Shown piece after piece: positions 15,289 to 38,133 of a DNA stretch of 59,582 nucleotides. The stretch is from Flavobacteriales bacterium (lineage in GTDB: Bacteria; Bacteroidota; Bacteroidia; Flavobacteriales_G; JALEGO01). The position numbers were made by a program, and so were the translations under genes. Under the pieces are notes generated by a model. It saw nothing but the letters and a program-made list of their open reading frames with translations, did no database searches and was not told where the DNA came from. The stretch lies in NCBI GenBank assembly GCA_020629755.1, contig JAHDCS010000009.1:1-59582 (forward strand), read 5' to 3'. Each line of letters begins with the position of its first letter. The first letter of the stretch is position 1.

Positions 15289-16914
15289 GTGAATCGCACC
15301 CTACTTCTTTTCATCATGTTTTTTTGTTTTTTTTCTGGGGGGATGTGTGCTCAGATCAAGGTAAGAGAAGTGAAAAAAGACATTGGTATTGTATACAGTC
15401 CTGATAATGGCGGGGCCTATTATGATTTTGTATTTGAAAATTCTAGCGATAAGCCCCATTACATACTGCGCTCACAAAACACGCCAAAGGCAAGCGTATT
15501 ATTTTCTTCTAAACGCATAGAGCCAAAAGGATCTATTTACGTAAGAATTAAATATATCTCTTTACAAGAAGGACGATTTTTAGTGAATGTTCCAGTATTT
15601 GTAAGCGCACAATCAGACCCAATTGTTTTGAGCCTTTCTGGAGAAACAAAATACAAAGACACCAAAACATCTCAGGCTTGCCCCAGCTTTTCATCAAAAT
15701 CATATAAAGAAAAAAAAGAGGCTCAAATTACCCTTAGAGTCATTGATGCCGTCTCAAAAAAACCTATAGCAGATGCCATGATTACCATTTCTAATTCTCC
15801 GTGGTCTAAACGCAATGTAAAGTCAGATGCCTCTGGCACGCACAAAGCAAAATCAAAAACCATGGGCATCCACTTTTTTGATATTCAAAAAAGTGGATAC
15901 TTACCTCTTTCGACCAAAAGAACCATAAGTTTTGGCTCTAATGTTTTTGTGTTTGAATTAGAACCTCAGCAAGTCATCCCTCCACTAAAAGAAGAACTCA
16001 TTATTCAAGTAAAAGATAAAAAAACCTTTGCCGCTATTGCTTCTGCCCAAGTGCGGATTAAAGATAAAAAAGCCCCCATCTTTGTGCAAAAAACGTCTGA
16101 AAGAGGGCAGGTTCTGTTTATGGACTACACGTCTGATAAGTATTATTCTATTGACGTGAGTGCTGAAAATTATCAGCCGCGCACAGATTATCAGCTGAGT
16201 GTCTTTGATAAAAAAGATAATCTCGTCACCATTTACCTTAATGCCATTGAAAAAGAAGAGCCTGTGGTCTCTTATCCCCCCCAAAAACCTAAAGATAAAC
16301 AACCACCCACACAAGAAACACCAAAAACAGAGTCTATAACTCCTTTAAGCAGTGATAAATATGCGCCCAACAACATTGTATTTTTAATTGACAAATCATC
16401 GTCTATGAAACATCAAGAACGCTTTGATATTTTAAAAACAACTATTATTGAACTGCTTAAACCCTTGCGTAAATCAGACAAAATTGCGTTAATCACTTAT
16501 GACACTGAGGTTGATGTGCTTTTGCCTTCTACACAAGCAGACCATAAAGCCTTAATAGCGGATGTTGTTTTTGAATTAGAGGCCGAAGGACTTACTGCCG
16601 GAGTAAGTGGTGTAGAAAAAGCCTTTGATATTTTAAACGGTTCTAAAATTAAAAACGGAAACAATGAATTGTTTGTGATTACCGATGGTGCTTTTAATGT
16701 TGGAGGCAAACAATCAATGGTAGAACCGCGCATTAAAAAAGAAGCAAATAATGGCTTTAAAATGTCTGTTATTGGCATAAAAACACCAATGGTGATTGAA
16801 GATGGCTTAAAAAAAATGGCTCAAATTGGCAATGGTGAGTTCATTACCATTGATTCGTCACAAGAAGCCAAAACTAAACTTTTAGATGTAGTGAAAGCGC
16901 ATTCAAGAAAGTAG
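15289..16914 (+). CDS. Secreted von Willebrand factor A protein with carboxypeptidase-regulatory-like repeats
   Basis: 541 residues from a GTG at 15289, which gives a clean signal peptide (MNRTLLLFIMFFCFFSGGMCAQ); an in-frame TTG at 15280 is possible. The first ~100 mature residues look like a DUF1573-type beta-sandwich (G-G-A-Y-Y-D-F-V-F-E-N). Two carboxypeptidase-regulatory-like units follow (I-T-L-R-V-I-D-A-V-S-K-K-P-I and E-L-I-I-Q-V-K-D-K-K-T-F). After a Pro/Lys linker comes a VWA domain with MIDAS D-K-S-S-S near residue 367, the distal Thr in L-T-A-G and the Asp in I-T-D-G-A-F, so metal binding looks intact. Ligand unknown. Confidence 0.85.
   Translation: MNRTLLLFIMFFCFFSGGMCAQIKVREVKKDIGIVYSPDNGGAYYDFVFENSSDKPHYILRSQNTPKASVLFSSKRIEPKGSIYVRIKYISLQEGRFLVNVPVFVSAQSDPIVLSLSGETKYKDTKTSQACPSFSSKSYKEKKEAQITLRVIDAVSKKPIADAMITISNSPWSKRNVKSDASGTHKAKSKTMGIHFFDIQKSGYLPLSTKRTISFGSNVFVFELEPQQVIPPLKEELIIQVKDKKTFAAIASAQVRIKDKKAPIFVQKTSERGQVLFMDYTSDKYYSIDVSAENYQPRTDYQLSVFDKKDNLVTIYLNAIEKEEPVVSYPPQKPKDKQPPTQETPKTESITPLSSDKYAPNNIVFLIDKSSSMKHQERFDILKTTIIELLKPLRKSDKIALITYDTEVDVLLPSTQADHKALIADVVFELEAEGLTAGVSGVEKAFDILNGSKIKNGNNELFVITDGAFNVGGKQSMVEPRIKKEANNGFKMSVIGIKTPMVIEDGLKKMAQIGNGEFITIDSSQEAKTKLLDVVKAHSRK
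15327..15345 (+). repeat. G6-ATG motif copy 6
   Basis: T-tract, CT, six G, ATG. Codes S-G-G-M in the signal peptide of the VWA protein. Confidence 0.85.
16274..16287 (-). repeat. G6-ATG motif copy 7 (seven G)
   Basis: Reverse strand reads TTTTTGGGGGGGAT. Sense strand codes Y-P-P-Q in the linker of the VWA protein. Confidence 0.75.
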
Positions 16915-23036: not shown

Positions 23037-24293
23037 TTATAGATTCAGTAAAACCTCTTCGGGCGTAGTATTACCAAAAATCATACGCACCGGATTTTCT
23101 AACATCTCTTTAATAGAATACAAAAAACCTACTGATTCTTTGCCATCAATAATACGATGATCATAAGAGAGGGCTACATACATTACGGGCTTCACAACTA
23201 CCTTACCATTTACTGCTACTGGACGCTCAACAATGTTATGCATGCCTAAAATAGCACTCTGAGGCGGATTAATAATGGGCGTAGAAAGCATTGAACCAAA
23301 CACCCCACCATTGGTAATGGTAAAAGTACCTCCTACCATTTCATCAATGGTAATTTTACCGTCTCTTGCTTTAATGGCCAAACGCTTAATTTCTGCTTCA
23401 ATTTCATGTAAGCTTAAGGTTTCTGCATTGCGCACGACCGGAACCATAAGGCCTTTAGGTGAACTGACTGCTATGCCTATATCAGCGTAATTGAACGACA
23501 CCATTTCTTGTCCGTCAATAATGGAATTAACGGCCGGATATAAACGCAAAGCCTCTGTAACCGCTTTAGTAAAAAATGACATAAACCCAAGGCCTACGCC
23601 ATGGGTTTCCTTGAATTTTTCTTTGTATTTTTTTCGGATAGTCATAATCGGCTCCATGTTTACCTCGTTAAAGGTGGTGAGCATAGCCGTATCATTCTTT
23701 ACTGCCACTAATCTTTGCGCAATTTTTCGTCTGAGTGAACTCATTTTTTTGCGCGATTCTTCTCTGGTTCCGCCCCAGCCTTGTAGCACATTTTGCCCCG
23801 ATACACCAGAAGTGATATACCTATTGACATCTGAAGCTACAATTTTACCATGAGCACCTGATCCAGATACTTTTCCGGGATTCACATTGTTTTTTGCCAT
23901 GATCTCTTTTGCAAGAGGGGATGCCTTAACATTTGAAGCAGTGGGTGCTTGTTTGACAATAGACGGGGCACTACTCGCAGCTACAGGTGTTGCTTTTTCT
24001 TCTTTTTTAGGAGTTTCTTGGGGGGATGCTTCTTTTTTCTTAGGCGTACCCTTCACTGAGGTATCAATTTTACAAACCACATCGCCAACTTGAACCGTAT
24101 CACCTTCTGAAGCTAAAATTTGTATCGCGCCAGACTCTTCAGCCATCAGCTCAAGAGTGGCTTTATCTGAGTCTATTTCTGCAATTGGCTGGTCTTTTTC
24201 AACGTATTCGCCTTCTGCAACTAGCCAACTGGCAATTTCAACTTCTGTGATCGATTCACCCGGCGAGGGTATTTTCATTTCAAGTACACTCAT
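23037..24293 (-). CDS. odhB: 2-oxoglutarate dehydrogenase E2 (dihydrolipoyl succinyltransferase)
   Basis: 418 residues in the standard order. The lipoyl domain (1-78) has the lipoylated lysine K44 in [10 protein letters not shown]. An Ala/Pro/Lys linker follows, then the peripheral subunit-binding domain (about 125-160, [14 protein letters not shown]) and the catalytic domain with H379 in DHRIIDG. It transfers the succinyl group from lipoate to CoA in the TCA cycle. It lies 35 bp downstream of the E1 gene in the same operon. A G-run motif copy in the first linker codes A-S-P-Q-E on the sense strand. Confidence 0.96.
24014..24028 (+). repeat. G6-ATG motif copy 11
   Basis: Reads TTTCTTGGGGGGATG. 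Antisense to odhB, which it makes read S-P-Q-E in the flexible linker. Confidence 0.8.
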
Positions 24294-31432: not shown

Positions 31433-31480
31433 CTATGCGTGCATAACAAATATTTTCATACATTTGTTATGCACGCATAG
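31433..31480. promoter_or_regulatory. Perfect 19-bp inverted-repeat operator of the MarR-fad operon
   Basis: Arms CTATGCGTGCATAACAAAT (31433-31451) and its exact complement (31462-31480) flank a 10-bp spacer. Each arm holds a TATGC-GT-GCATA palindrome, a size that suits one MarR dimer, so two dimers could bind about 29 bp (close to three helical turns) apart. The right arm overlaps the -7 box and ends 3 bp before the regulator's ATG. This layout fits autorepression and control of the downstream beta-oxidation genes. Confidence 0.8.
31459..31466 (+). promoter_or_regulatory. -7 promoter box (TACATTTG) of the fad operon
   Basis: Exact TAnnTTTG match straddling the operator spacer and right arm, 17 bp before the ATG at 31484. 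A bound regulator would block it. Confidence 0.65.
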
Positions 31481-31483
31481 TTT

Positions 31484-31939
31484 ATGCAAAAAGAAGAAAT
31501 GCTCGATTTTCATATTCGCAACGTCTGGCAAAAAATTGCCAGGATGTACAATGCCAATGGTCAAAAAGAAGGCTTAAGCATGTCATGGGGTTATGTACTT
31601 TTGAATATTGACAATAAAAAAGGAACGCCTTCTACCAAACTTGGCCCTAAAATGGGCATGGAATCGACCTCTTTATCTCGCATTTTAAAAAACATGGAAA
31701 CAAAAGGGTACATCCTTAGAGAATCTGATCCATCAGATGGGCGTTTGTCTCTTCTTTTTCTTACCTCTAAAGGGCTCAAAGCCAGAAATTTTGCTAAAAA
31801 GAATGTCTTTGCCTTTAATCGACATATTTATGGGGCCATCCCCCCGAAAAAAATAGCCCAATGCATAGAGGTTATGACTGAATTAAATACTATCTTGGAT
31901 ACGCATATTATTTTTGAAAATCAAAAAATTACAGGGTAA
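31484..31939 (+). CDS. MarR-family transcriptional regulator of the fad operon
   Basis: 151 residues. A winged helix-turn-helix spans about 35-110; the wing region reads ESDPSDGRLSLLFLTSKG, the family's usual D-x-R-D/S motif. N- and C-terminal helices supply dimerisation. Its ATG follows the perfect inverted-repeat operator, and its TAATG stop overlaps the fadN start by one base. It is likely a repressor of beta-oxidation relieved by an acyl-CoA or fatty acid; the ligand is inferred from context only. Confidence 0.93.
   Translation: MQKEEMLDFHIRNVWQKIARMYNANGQKEGLSMSWGYVLLNIDNKKGTPSTKLGPKMGMESTSLSRILKNMETKGYILRESDPSDGRLSLLFLTSKGLKARNFAKKNVFAFNRHIYGAIPPKKIAQCIEVMTELNTILDTHIIFENQKITG
31837..31853 (-). 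repeat. G6-ATG motif copy 14
   Basis: Reverse strand reads TTTTTTTCGGGGGGATG. Sense strand codes I-P-P-K in the MarR regulator. Confidence 0.8.
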
Positions 31940-34359
31940 TGGAAGCTGTTTTATCAAAAACTAAAGAACAAAAAACTGTGAAAAGAAGAATTAAAAAAGC
32001 AGCCGTAATAGGCTCAGGTGTAATGGGCTCAAGAATAGCCTGTCATTTTGCAAACATAGGCTTAGATGTGTTACTCTTAGACATTGTACCTAAAGAAGCC
32101 AAAGACTCTAAGGTGAAAAAAGAGCGCAATAAAATTGTGGATGACGCCTTAAAATTTGCTTTAAAATCAAAACCATCACCGATTTATAACAAAAGCTTTA
32201 CCTCTAAAATCCAGACCGGAAATCTAGACGATGATTTAGCTGAAATCAAAGACGCCGACTGGGTTATTGAAGTGGTTGTTGAGCGTTTAGACATCAAAAA
32301 ACAGGTGTTTGAAAACATAGAAAAACATAGAAAACCAGGATCTTTAATTACGTCCAATACTTCAGGAATTCCAATCAAATTAATGACTGAAGGCAGAAGC
32401 GATGATTTTAAAAAGCATTTTTGTGGCACACACTTTTTTAATCCGCCACGTTACTTAAAACTCCTTGAAATAATCCCGACTAAAGATACCGATCCAGAGG
32501 TGGTTACGTTTTTAATGGATTATGGCAAGCGTTTCTTGGGTAAAACTACCGTTCTTGCTAAAGATACTCCAGCATTTATCGCCAATCGAATAGGTGTATT
32601 TGCCATTCAAGATTTATTCCACACCATTAAGTCCATGGGGCTTACCGTAGATGAAATAGATAAACTCACCGGTCCTATTATTGGCCGCGCAAAATCAGCT
32701 ACCTTTAGAACTTGCGATGTAGTCGGATTAGACACTTTAGCTTTAGTGGCCAAAGGCGTCAAAGACAACTGCCCTAAAGACGAACGTAAAGAATTGTTTG
32801 AGCTGCCCGATTATCTTCAAAAAATGATCGACAAGAAATGGCTAGGGTCAAAAACAAAGCAAGGATTTTATAAAAAAGATAAAACTGCTGAGGGTAAAAA
32901 AGTCATTAAAGTCTTAGATCTCAACACCCTAGAATATGTCGATAAGAAAAAAGTAAAATTTGCCACCCTTGATATGCTCAAGCCTATTGACGATTTAAAA
33001 AAGCGTTTAGCTATGGCTTTTATGGGGATGGATAAAGCGGGTGATTTTTACAAAAAAACCTTCTCGTCGCTCTTTCAATATGTGAGTAATAGAATTCCTG
33101 AAATTTCAGATGAACTTTACAAAATTGACGATGCAATGTGCGCTGGCTTTGGGTATCAGATGGGACCTTTCGAAACCTGGGACGCGATAGGTGTAGAAAA
33201 AGCACTTAAAGTAATGAAAGATTTAGGCTTTGCCCCTAATGTGTGGGTGGAAGAGATGTTAAGTTCTGGAGCCAAGAGTTTTTATAAGGTTGAAGATGGC
33301 GTAAGAAAATACTATGACATCCCATCTAAATCATATAAAATGATTCCGGGCTCTGATCAGGTATTGGCTTTAGCAAATCTTAGAGAGAACAATACCCTTT
33401 GGAAAAATGCGGGCACTACTCTAGTGGATTTAGGCGATGGCATCTTAAATCTAGAGTTTCATACTAAAATGAATACGATTGGTGCTGAAGTGATTCAGGG
33501 CATAAACAAAGCCTTAGATATTGCTGAAGAGAGTTATGACGGCCTTGTAATTTCTAACGATGGTGAAAACTTCTCTGCAGGTGCCAATGTAGGCATGATT
33601 TTAATGATGGCCATTGAACAAGATTGGGACGAACTCAATTTTGCCATTAAGTCTTTTCAAGACACCATGATGCGTGTGCGTTACTCTTCTATACCGGTGG
33701 TGGTTGCACCTCATAATCTTACTCTCGGAGGCGGATGTGAGCTTACCATGCATGCCGATGCTGTTGTAGCACATGCTGAAACTTATATTGGGTTAGTTGA
33801 ATTTGGTGTAGGCGTTATTCCTGGTGGTGGTGGCACTAAAGAATTTGCACTTCGTTTCTCAGATGAACTCCACGAAGGCGATATGCGCATCAATCAATTT
33901 AGAAACCGCTTTTTAACGATTGGTCAAGCCAAGGTTGCTACCTCTGCTTATGAAGCCTTTGATTTAGGTTATTTAAGAAAAGGAATTGATACCGTTGTGG
34001 TCAGTAAAGCTTATCAATTATCGGCAGCTAAACACAAAGCCCTTGATTTAGCCTTTAACGGATACACACAAAAACCAATGCGTAAAGACATTAAAGTACT
34101 AGGTAAAGAAGCGATGGGTATAGTTTATGTGGGCGCAGACTCTATGCTTCATGGGGCATACATCTCTGAACATGACAAATTAATCTCAGAAAAGTTAGGA
34201 TCTGTATTGGCCGGAGGTAATCTGTCTGCAATTACAGAAGTATCTGAGCGTTATTTATTGGATTTAGAGCGCAAAGCCTTTTTAGAACTTTGCCAAACTG
34301 AAAAAACTCTAAAACGAATGGAAAGCCTAGTAAAAACAGGTAAAATTTTAAGAAACTAA
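31939..34359 (+). CDS. fadN: 3-hydroxyacyl-CoA dehydrogenase / enoyl-CoA hydratase fusion (FadN-type)
   Basis: 806 residues. The dehydrogenase comes first: NAD-binding AAVIGSGVMGSRIACHFA near residue 25 and the catalytic H in GTHFFNPPRYL (~155). The crotonase domain comes last, about 495-750, with TLGGGCELTMHADA and GVIPGGGGTKE carrying the paired glutamates. This order is that of Bacillus FadN and Bacteroidota homologues, the reverse of E. coli FadB/FadJ. It carries out hydration and NAD-dependent oxidation in fatty-acid beta-oxidation. Second gene of the marR-fadN-fadA-fadE operon, 4 bp from fadA. Confidence 0.95.
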   Translation: MEAVLSKTKEQKTVKRRIKKAAVIGSGVMGSRIACHFANIGLDVLLLDIVPKEAKDSKVKKERNKIVDDALKFALKSKPSPIYNKSFTSKIQTGNLDDDLAEIKDADWVIEVVVERLDIKKQVFENIEKHRKPGSLITSNTSGIPIKLMTEGRSDDFKKHFCGTHFFNPPRYLKLLEIIPTKDTDPEVVTFLMDYGKRFLGKTTVLAKDTPAFIANRIGVFAIQDLFHTIKSMGLTVDEIDKLTGPIIGRAKSATFRTCDVVGLDTLALVAKGVKDNCPKDERKELFELPDYLQKMIDKKWLGSKTKQGFYKKDKTAEGKKVIKVLDLNTLEYVDKKKVKFATLDMLKPIDDLKKRLAMAFMGMDKAGDFYKKTFSSLFQYVSNRIPEISDELYKIDDAMCAGFGYQMGPFETWDAIGVEKALKVMKDLGFAPNVWVEEMLSSGAKSFYKVEDGVRKYYDIPSKSYKMIPGSDQVLALANLRENNTLWKNAGTTLVDLGDGILNLEFHTKMNTIGAEVIQGINKALDIAEESYDGLVISNDGENFSAGANVGMILMMAIEQDWDELNFAIKSFQDTMMRVRYSSIPVVVAPHNLTLGGGCELTMHADAVVAHAETYIGLVEFGVGVIPGGGGTKEFALRFSDELHEGDMRINQFRNRFLTIGQAKVATSAYEAFDLGYLRKGIDTVVVSKAYQLSAAKHKALDLAFNGYTQKPMRKDIKVLGKEAMGIVYVGADSMLHGAYISEHDKLISEKLGSVLAGGNLSAITEVSERYLLDLERKAFLELCQTEKTLKRMESLVKTGKILRN

Positions 34360-34363
34360 TAGT

Positions 34364-35548
34364 ATGAGTCAAGACGTATATATTGTATCGGCATACAGAA
34401 CAGCCGTAGGAAAAGCTCCTAGAGGAGCGTTTAAAAACATGCGTGCCGATGATTTGGCTGCCCATGTGGTGAAACATATTTTAAAAGAAAATCCATCTTT
34501 AGATAAAGAACGCATCGATGATGTGATTATCGGCAATGCTACCCCTGAAGCTGAACAAGGCTTAAATATGGGACGTATGATTTCACTGATGGGCTTAGAT
34601 ACTGATAAAGTGCCTGGCATGACCGTTAATCGGTATTGTTCTTCAGGTGTTGAAACCATTGCGATAGCACATGCCAAGATTCAGGCAGGCATGGCTGATA
34701 TAATCTTAGCTGGAGGGGCAGAAACCATGTCGCCTATTCCTTTTGGGGGATGGCGTATCGTGCCAAATGCAGATGTTGCTAAAAACAACCCAAACTGGTA
34801 CTGGGGTATGGGACTTACCGCAGAAGCCGTTGCAAAGGATTACAAAGTAACAAGAGAAATGCAAGATCAGTTTGCCTACAACTCTCAAATGAAAGCGGCA
34901 GCTGCTATTAAAGACGGAAAGTTCAAAGACGATATTGTACCCATCAAAGTATCTGAAACCCTTTTAGATGCCAACGAAAAACCGCAAACCAAAGAGTTTG
35001 TAATGGATACAGATCAGGGTGTAAGAGCTACTACCACAGTTGAAGCTTTAGGAAAACTTAAGCCTGTATTTCAACAAGGCGGAACCGTTACAGCAGGTAA
35101 TGCCTCTCAAACTTCAGACGGAGCAGCCATGACTCTACTGGTCTCTGAAAAGGTAATGAAAGACCTCAATTTAACCCCTATCGCAAGATTGGTATCTTAC
35201 CATGTATCTGGTGTTGAACCGCGTATTATGGGCATTGGCCCAGTAGCCGCTATTCCAGAAGCCGTAAAAAAAGCCGGACTAAAACTCAATGACATAGAGC
35301 TTTTTGAGCTTAACGAGGCCTTTGCTTCTCAGTCTGTTGCTGTAATGAACGAACTTGGATTAAACCCTGATATTGTAAATGTAAACGGAGGCGCTATAGC
35401 GCTTGGTCATCCTCTGGGCTGTACCGGAACAAAATTATCTGTTCAATTGTTTAACGAAATGCGCAGACGAAACAACAAGTACGGTGCGGTGACCATGTGT
35501 GTCGGAACCGGGCAAGGTGCTTGTGCTATATATGAATTATTAAATTAA
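34364..35548 (+). CDS. fadA: Acetyl-CoA C-acyltransferase (thiolase)
   Basis: 394 residues, standard thiolase length. The nucleophile Cys lies in NRYCSSGVETI (~90), the His in GGAIALGHPLGCTG (~351) and the second Cys in CVGTGQGACA near the end, so all catalytic residues are present. It cleaves 3-ketoacyl-CoA with CoA to release acetyl-CoA in beta-oxidation. It sits 4 bp after fadN and 7 bp before fadE. A 5-G variant of the G-run motif (TTTTGGGGGATGG) occurs at about 34741-34753. Confidence 0.96.
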   Translation: MSQDVYIVSAYRTAVGKAPRGAFKNMRADDLAAHVVKHILKENPSLDKERIDDVIIGNATPEAEQGLNMGRMISLMGLDTDKVPGMTVNRYCSSGVETIAIAHAKIQAGMADIILAGGAETMSPIPFGGWRIVPNADVAKNNPNWYWGMGLTAEAVAKDYKVTREMQDQFAYNSQMKAAAAIKDGKFKDDIVPIKVSETLLDANEKPQTKEFVMDTDQGVRATTTVEALGKLKPVFQQGGTVTAGNASQTSDGAAMTLLVSEKVMKDLNLTPIARLVSYHVSGVEPRIMGIGPVAAIPEAVKKAGLKLNDIELFELNEAFASQSVAVMNELGLNPDIVNVNGGAIALGHPLGCTGTKLSVQLFNEMRRRNNKYGAVTMCVGTGQGACAIYELLN

Positions 35549-35555
35549 GTGTATT

Positions 35556-37340
35556 ATGAGTGATGCTAAAGCTTTAAAAGGAGGCGAATTTATCGTCAAG
35601 GATGTTGACGCCAGAGATGTCTTTATTCCAGAAGAATTTAACGAAGAGCAACAAATGATTGCGCAAACCTGCAAAGATTATGTGGCTACTGAAGTACATC
35701 CAAGAATCGAAGAAATTGAAAAATTACCTGAAGGCTTAAACACCCAACTTATGGAAAAAGCTGGAGAACTTGGTATTTTAGGTGTACATATCCCTGAAGA
35801 ATATGGGGGATTTGGCAAAGGCACTATTACCGATATGCTCGTTGCTGAATCTATCGGCCATGCTTACTCAGCCACCGTGTCTATTATGGCGCACACGGGT
35901 ATTGGTACACTACCTATCTTATATTACGGCAACGATGAACAAAAGAAAAAATACATACCAAAACTTGCTTCCGGAGAATGGAAAGCAGCTTACTGCCTCA
36001 CGGAGCCTTCTTCAGGCTCAGATGCCAACTCTGGAAAGACTACTGCAAAACTCTCTGACGATGGAAAGCATTGGATCTTAAACGGTCAAAAAATGTGGAT
36101 TACCAACGCTGGCTTTGCAGATGTGTTCACTGTTTTTGCCAAAATTGATGACGATAAAAACCTAAGTGCTTTTATTGTTGAAAAAGGAGCTGAAGGTCTT
36201 TCTTTAAATGCAGAAGAAAAGAAAATGGGCATCAAGGGCTCTTCTACACGCCAAGTGTTTTTTAACAACTGTAAAATACCAAAAGAAAACCAATTAGGCG
36301 AAAGAGAAATTGGATTTAAAATTGCTCTGAATGTGTTAAACGTAGGCCGACTTAAATTAGGGGCAGGTGTTATGGGTGCTTGCAAAGAAGCCATCTTAAA
36401 GTCTGTAAACTATTCAAATGAAAGAGAGCAATTCGGAAGAGTTATTTCTAAGTATGGCGCTATTCGTCATAAATTGGCTGAGCAGTGTATCCGCACCTAC
36501 GTCTTAGAATCAGCTGTTTATAGAGCGTCTAATGACATTGAAAATAAAATTCAAGAACTCAAGGCTGGTGGTTTAGACGCCATCAAAGCTAAAATGAAAG
36601 GCATTGAAGAGTTTGCGGCAGAATGTGCTATTTTAAAAGTATTGGGTTCTGAAGTACTCGACTTTGTAGTAGATGAAGGTGTTCAAATTTATGGAGGGAT
36701 GGGATACTCAGCAGAAGCACCGATGGATAGAGCCTACCGAGATGCTCGAATCAACCGTATTTTTGAAGGCACCAACGAAATCAACAGAATGCTTACTGTT
36801 GATATGATTCTTAAAAAAGGACTAAAAGGCGAATTAGATCTAATGGGCCCTGCACAAAAAGTAGCCGGTGAGCTGATGAGTGTACCTTCTTCTGAAGATG
36901 AAGATCTTGGATTATTTGCTGAGCAAAAGAAAATGATCAAAAACTTTAAGAAAGCAGGTCTTATGGTGGCCGGTGCAGCAGTTCAAAAACTCATGCAAAC
37001 CATGGCTAAAGAACAAGAGGTGCTGATGAATATCTCAGATATTATCATCAATGCCTATGCCGCTGAATCTGTTTTACTCAGAACAGAAAAGCTGGTAGGC
37101 ATGAAGTCTGAAGCTGAAGTAGAAGAGCAGATAGCGATGATGAAAGTCTATATCTACGATGCAGCAGACAAGATTAACAAAGCAGCCAAAGATGCCATCA
37201 ATTCTTTTGCTGATGGCGATGAGCAACGCATGATGCTTATGGGCTTAAAAAGATTTACAAAATCAGAGCCTTTAAATATCAAAGAATTGCGTCAAAAAAT
37301 TGCTGTAAAAGTCATTGAGAAAAATGCGTATTGTTATTAA
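35556..37340 (+). CDS. fadE: Acyl-CoA dehydrogenase, FadE type with C-terminal extension
   Basis: 594 residues, the same length as Bacillus FadE. The FAD-binding C-x-T-E-P-S-S-G-S-D-A motif is at about 149-159. The catalytic glutamate lies in YRDARINRIFEGTNE (~395-409), after G-G-M-G-Y. About 170 additional helical residues follow the normal ~380-residue core, a feature of this subclass. It performs the first oxidation of acyl-CoA. Last gene of the operon; a strong terminator follows at 37360. Confidence 0.95.
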   Translation: MSDAKALKGGEFIVKDVDARDVFIPEEFNEEQQMIAQTCKDYVATEVHPRIEEIEKLPEGLNTQLMEKAGELGILGVHIPEEYGGFGKGTITDMLVAESIGHAYSATVSIMAHTGIGTLPILYYGNDEQKKKYIPKLASGEWKAAYCLTEPSSGSDANSGKTTAKLSDDGKHWILNGQKMWITNAGFADVFTVFAKIDDDKNLSAFIVEKGAEGLSLNAEEKKMGIKGSSTRQVFFNNCKIPKENQLGEREIGFKIALNVLNVGRLKLGAGVMGACKEAILKSVNYSNEREQFGRVISKYGAIRHKLAEQCIRTYVLESAVYRASNDIENKIQELKAGGLDAIKAKMKGIEEFAAECAILKVLGSEVLDFVVDEGVQIYGGMGYSAEAPMDRAYRDARINRIFEGTNEINRMLTVDMILKKGLKGELDLMGPAQKVAGELMSVPSSEDEDLGLFAEQKKMIKNFKKAGLMVAGAAVQKLMQTMAKEQEVLMNISDIIINAYAAESVLLRTEKLVGMKSEAEVEEQIAMMKVYIYDAADKINKAAKDAINSFADGDEQRMMLMGLKRFTKSEPLNIKELRQKIAVKVIEKNAYCY

Positions 37341-37359: not shown

Positions 37360-37394
37360 AAAAGCCTGTTTGTTAAGACAAATGGGCTTTTTTA
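37360..37394 (+). terminator. Rho-independent terminator of the fad operon
   Basis: AAAAGCCTGTTTGT and ACAAATGGGCTTTT form a 14-bp stem (with two G-T pairs) around a TAAG loop, followed by T's; 19 bp after the fadE stop. Confidence 0.85.
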
Positions 37395-37432
37395 TTGACT
37401 CATATTTGATATTTGTAGACCTTTGTCTCGTT

Positions 37433-38059
37433 ATGAGATTTATTTATACAATATGCCTTTGTTTTGTTTTACCAATACTCCTTATAAATGGATCTGGCTG
37501 CGGTAAAGCCTCAAGTAAAAAAATCAACAGCGATGAAAATCTTGAAGCTTTTGCCATCGATGCACTTAACGATTTAAAGCAAAAAGATTGGCATTCTTTT
37601 GCAGAAAAATTTAGAGACAATGGTTCTATCCGATTCTCTCCTTACTCAACAGTGAATGTAGACAAGGATATTACTTTTGAATTTGGGCCTTTCATTATGG
37701 TGAATGTTGCTGAAACTGAATATAATTATACATGGGGATATAGTGATGGAATTGGCGACCCTTTATATGGCAATTTCAAAGAGTATTATTTAAATACGTT
37801 TATATTTCCAACAGACCTTACTACAGGTGAACCTATAGATTTTTTAGCCTATCCTATCTATGTAAATAACCAACGTTCAACCCAAAACTCTGTTAACAAT
37901 CTCTTAGAAGTATATCCAGGTGCAGACGTGGTAGAATTCTACATGCCTGGCACAGATGAATATATTAGTATGGATTGGAAAAGTTTAAAATTTGTGATTA
38001 ATGTTGTCGACAACAAACTTCAACTACTCGGTGTGGTGAGTGGAAGATGGACGATTTAA
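37433..38059 (+). CDS. Hypothetical lipoprotein
   Basis: 208 residues from the ATG at 37433; an earlier in-frame start at 37370 lies inside the fad terminator and is rejected. The signal MRFIYTICLCFVLPILLINGSGC ends in G-S-G-C, a lipobox. The mature domain begins with an Asp/Glu/Lys-rich stretch, then reads like a small NTF2/SnoaL-like fold (D-A-L-N-D-L-K-Q-K-D-W-H-S-F-A-E-K-F). Function unknown. It is flanked by terminators on both sides, so it is monocistronic. Confidence 0.75.
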   Translation: MRFIYTICLCFVLPILLINGSGCGKASSKKINSDENLEAFAIDALNDLKQKDWHSFAEKFRDNGSIRFSPYSTVNVDKDITFEFGPFIMVNVAETEYNYTWGYSDGIGDPLYGNFKEYYLNTFIFPTDLTTGEPIDFLAYPIYVNNQRSTQNSVNNLLEVYPGADVVEFYMPGTDEYISMDWKSLKFVINVVDNKLQLLGVVSGRWTI

Positions 38060-38102
38060 TCTTTTATACTAAAGCACACATCCCTTATAAAATTGTATCT
38101 TA

Positions 38103-38133
38103 AATCCTGAAGCTTCGCTTCAGGATTTTTTTT
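38103..38133 (+). terminator. Rho-independent terminator touching the next start codon
   Basis: AATCCTGAAGC and GCTTCAGGATT form a perfect 11-bp stem with a TTC loop and run into eight T's. The GTG start of the J-domain gene is the very next base. Confidence 0.85.

Follow-up and report, generated by a model that had tools for sequence, protein, structure and literature searches.

A perfect inverted repeat at the promoter of a Flavobacteriales marR–fadN–fadA–fadE operon as a probable pair of ordinary MarR operators

The perfect inverted repeat at positions 31433–31480 of the window (the whole 59,582-nucleotide stretch of DNA analysed) very probably represents two ordinary MarR operators that flank the core promoter of a beta-oxidation operon and would repress it until a fatty-acid signal binds the regulator. 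Comparison between genomes ties the predicted operator core to this marR family and to fatty-acid genes, and shows two copies of it here. MarR-type autoregulated operators are known; the present one appears to be a doubled version within a conserved fatty-acid regulon. The case illustrates that a long, striking palindrome can be merely two copies of a short site, and the regulator concerned, a MarR regulator of fatty-acid breakdown, is present in roughly every second genome sampled from its class. The features are as follows.

31433–31451, forward strand: arm 1, the upstream operator copy, CTATGCGTGCATAACAAAT; core TATGCGTGCATA at 31434–31445, about −37 to −26 from the putative start of transcription
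31459–31466, forward strand: −7 promoter box of Bacteroidota type, TACATTTG, read from the sequence
31462–31480, reverse strand: arm 2, the downstream operator copy, ATTTGTTATGCACGCATAG; core TATGCACGCATA at 31468–31479, about −3 to +9
31471, forward strand: putative start of transcription, giving a 13-nt leader, with the −7 box placed at −12 to −5
31484–31939, forward strand: MarR-family regulator, 151 aa (Pfam MarR, 9e-11, above cut-off)
31939–34359, forward strand: fadN-like 3-hydroxyacyl-CoA dehydrogenase/enoyl-CoA hydratase, 806 aa (3HCDH_N, 3HCDH, ECH_1)
34364–35548, forward strand: fadA-like acyl-CoA thiolase, 394 aa (Thiolase_N/C)
35556–37340, forward strand: fadE acyl-CoA dehydrogenase, 594 aa (NCBIfam NF058590, above cut-off)
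37363–37395, forward strand: likely intrinsic terminator of the operon, AAGCCTGTTTGT..ACAAATGGGCTTTTTT, read from the sequence

The initial annotation had described a perfect 19-bp inverted repeat with arms 10 bp apart, and this was reproduced: 19/19 bases pair (100% complementary) across a 10-nt spacer. Each arm also contains the described TATGC-GT-GCATA symmetry, a 5 + 2 + 5 palindrome, and the 12-bp core TATGCNNGCATA is complete in both. The repeat is not due to chance; no perfect inverted repeat in the window with a spacer of 3–20 nt is longer, the next independent one having 14-bp arms, while in 12 first-order Markov copies of the window the longest repeats reached 9–12 bp and about 1.4e-5 repeats of at least 19 bp were expected. 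Folding of the single strand gives −20.5 kcal/mol (z = −7.5). Elsewhere in the window, another perfect inverted repeat, with 14-bp arms (ATCCACTTTTTTGA / TCAAAAAAGTGGAT) 3 nt apart at 15868–15898, sits within a 544-aa open reading frame with a von Willebrand A domain.

The −7 box does lie within the repeat, as described from the outset: the first three bases of TACATTTG lie in the spacer and the last five within arm 2, where its ATTTG doubles as the flank of that arm. The box agrees with the Bacteroidota consensus TAnnTTTG, located at −12 to −5 (PMC6847099, PMC9723704), and this placement would put the start of transcription near 31471. The regulator's ATG does follow the repeat by 3 bp, at 31484.

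Domain matches bore out the proposal of a MarR-type gene at the head of a fadN–fadA–fadE beta-oxidation operon, the four genes forming an almost gapless run. The regulator has the MarR winged-helix domain (Pfam PF01047 and PF12802, both above gathering scores). Its nearest matches in the PDB are remote (best E 7e-7), the protein scan of genome contigs returned three relatives only, and the nearest named relatives in that scan belong to the Flavobacteriaceae and other Bacteroidota. Across 15 marR orthologues 18 residues are invariant, including S63, L64 and R66 beside GMES. In-frame TGA codons were present in the marR orthologue matches of four genomes of one genus (G318, G190, G128 and G219; f10, g25) and may lie where the match ends. 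Downstream of the operon, an ordinary intrinsic terminator with a perfectly paired 12-bp stem and a trailing T run (AATCCTGAAGCTTCGCTTCAGGATTTTTTTT, 38102–38128) stands after an open reading frame at 37430–38059.

A lack of conservation in related genomes had been named beforehand as grounds for abandoning the operator, and the core was instead kept in relatives. For 115 marR orthologues drawn from the order and the class, the 250 bp preceding the gene were searched, and 103 contained the exact core TATGCNNGCATA, 93 of them a single time and 10 in two copies; these include orthologues reaching down to about 31–40% protein identity. This fits a palindromic operator of about 12–20 bp near the regulator's own promoter, as expected of the MarR family. 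The centre of the core at marR is almost always AT, GT/AC or TT/AA, and its flanks are softly conserved, with T then R before it and Y then A after it. The exact core was absent from 12/115, at least two of which are contig ends or near matches (e.g. L034, L008). Among 66 promoters with one core and a TAnnTTYG box within 40 nt, the gap between the two was 8–13 nt in 58, usually 10–12 nt; arm 1 of the window lies at 13 nt and is therefore the counterpart of the relatives' usual single site, arm 2, just past the −7 box, being the additional copy. Overall, the link between the MarR regulator and the predicted operator core is well supported by these comparisons. No description of the regulator or of its motif was found in the open papers searched, nor any described operator with the core TATGCNNGCATA in the literature searched.

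Paired cores are a minority arrangement. A class-wide scan for two cores 12–40 nt apart found pairs in 19/395 genomes against one for the reversed motif used as control; 11 were before marR–fadN, seven before fadE and one elsewhere. The order-wide scan added two, before marR–fadN in G037 and before a phasin-like gene in G003. A fadN match directly followed marR in all 12 paired-site marR loci examined, and marR adjoining fadN and preceded by the operator is the arrangement by which we recognize a MarR-controlled beta-oxidation operon of Bacteroidota. The congener G001 retains both arms, with a different arm sequence (TATGCTTGCATA / TATGCAAGCATA), although the DNA preceding them has diverged; in the same-family genome G002 only the downstream core is present, with one core mismatch; and the more distant G182 has the layout of the window. 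In most other paired promoters the extra copy is further upstream.

We propose that one regulator dimer would occupy each operator, the two standing head-to-head around the −7 box. Without inducer, one dimer would cover the −33 side of the promoter (core −37 to −26) and the other the edge of the −7 box and the start of transcription (core −3 to +9), so that RNA polymerase would be doubly blocked and the regulator's own synthesis limited. A fatty-acid signal, most likely acyl-CoA, the product of acyl-CoA synthetase, would then bind the regulator, make it release both sites and switch beta-oxidation on. Binding of the regulator to the core is predicted; acyl-CoA-triggered release is suggested by the genes controlled. 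MarR sites can activate as well as repress. Repression by the regulator at the marR promoter is nevertheless very likely, as the predicted sites overlap the core promoter. The two dimers foreseen in the initial annotation agree with one complete core per arm, and autoregulation is likely, the repeat being the regulator's own predicted promoter/operator. Its remark that a 38-bp site is long for this family falls away, for the repeat resolves into two 12-bp cores of normal size (some 18 bp each when flanks are counted), of which most relatives carry one.

One alternative is a single extended operator, in which the entire 38-bp dyad would be required by a MarR tetramer or by two dimers binding with strong cooperativity. 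The perfect 19-bp arms and the retention of both copies in the congener would fit this; most orthologues, however, have one core, and the distance between core centres, 34 bp in the window, is 37 bp in G001 and 24–51 bp elsewhere, with no common helical phase. Because the spacing keeps no fixed phase, a fixed cooperative complex is unsupported, and the cooperation between dimers originally predicted is not upheld. We regard the extended operator as unlikely. It is less probable still that the core is bound by another regulator with marR a bystander. Although the association of core and marR is one of co-occurrence only, the core precedes marR in the great majority of orthologues, stands also before unlinked fatty-acid genes in marR-bearing genomes, and is much rarer where marR is missing (4 AT-, GT- or AC-centred cores in 20 genomes without a marR orthologue, at least 31 in 20 genomes with one). 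Scarcely credible, finally, is a role as an RNA hairpin, either an attenuator or the terminator of an upstream gene: the stem is strong, but the predicted transcript begins inside arm 2, so the stem straddles the start and would not be in the transcript of this promoter. It is also without a terminator-like T run, none of its Rfam matches, chiefly to eukaryotic microRNA models, comes near the curated cut-offs, and it is the core, not the stem, that relatives keep.

With two operators as the preferred reading, most of the perfect 19-bp match between the arms is already accounted for by a conserved palindrome that is present in two good copies, possibly helped by template switching from one arm to the other. 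Between the window and the congener both arm centres changed together, from GT/AC to TT/AA, and are still perfectly complementary; such in-step change in two congeners may be read as a weak sign of template switching, the chance of matching centres being estimated at 23% per promoter from the centre frequencies at marR orthologues. Template switching has been documented elsewhere for quasi-palindromes (PMC7202029, PMC8794818). Concerted evolution, in which repeated template switching rewrites one operator arm from the other, is a tentative idea that we consider rather doubtful; if true, it would make this a self-correcting twin operator in a Bacteroidota fatty-acid breakdown regulon, of which no description was found.

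MexR, CouR and FabT are autoregulated MarR-family repressors, winged-helix dimers with a palindromic site over their own promoter; CouR responds to acyl-CoA and FabT to acyl-ACP. The present regulator resembles them in that its gene heads the operon controlled and a predicted palindromic site covers its own promoter, but it would control beta-oxidation, and in Bacteroidota. The FadR proteins of Bacillus (TetR-type) and Escherichia coli (GntR-type) repress beta-oxidation genes and are relieved by acyl-CoA, presumably the same job as proposed here, although the MarR-type regulator belongs to an unrelated protein family, has different operators and is encoded in the operon itself.

TATGCRYGCATA is a sharp candidate operator for a MarR regulator of fatty-acid breakdown, and its only exact matches genome-wide are the two arms. 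The expectation that a search with TATGCGTGCATA would reveal a regulon in this genome failed, as no further copy exists outside the repeat. The sole other exact TATGCNNGCATA (contig C16:8472) was rejected as an operator, being in a coding frame and having a TG centre not seen at marR; a one-mismatch site at 23237 of the window was rejected as lying within a 2-oxoacid dehydrogenase E2 gene. With up to two mismatches, the motif and its reversed control each gave 144 matches in this genome, with no excess, and its etfB and fadD-like promoters had no good core match. About 70 bp before etfB (L218, contig C88 of G000) stands TTTTGCATGCAATT, which resembles the operator in degenerate form (four mismatches, not significant); relatives carry the full operator at this place. 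Cores before other fatty-acid genes are thus a finding from relatives, and a wider regulon is not a defining feature of the MarR-controlled beta-oxidation operon itself. Single cores precede etfB in L186, L210 and L213, acyl-CoA synthetase (fadD) in L189, 2,4-dienoyl-CoA reductase in L203 (with a similar gene in L192), acyl-CoA dehydrogenase in L207 and fadE in L217. These single-core targets were taken from genomes with many matches, several other sites having no clear link, and therefore show the kind of genes controlled and not the complete regulon. Cores before phasin-like genes, single in L205 and paired in L041, suggest a possible link of fatty-acid breakdown to storage granules. Both phasin-like genes are small, with Pfam PF05597 just below cut-off, and are followed by an AarF/UbiB-like gene.
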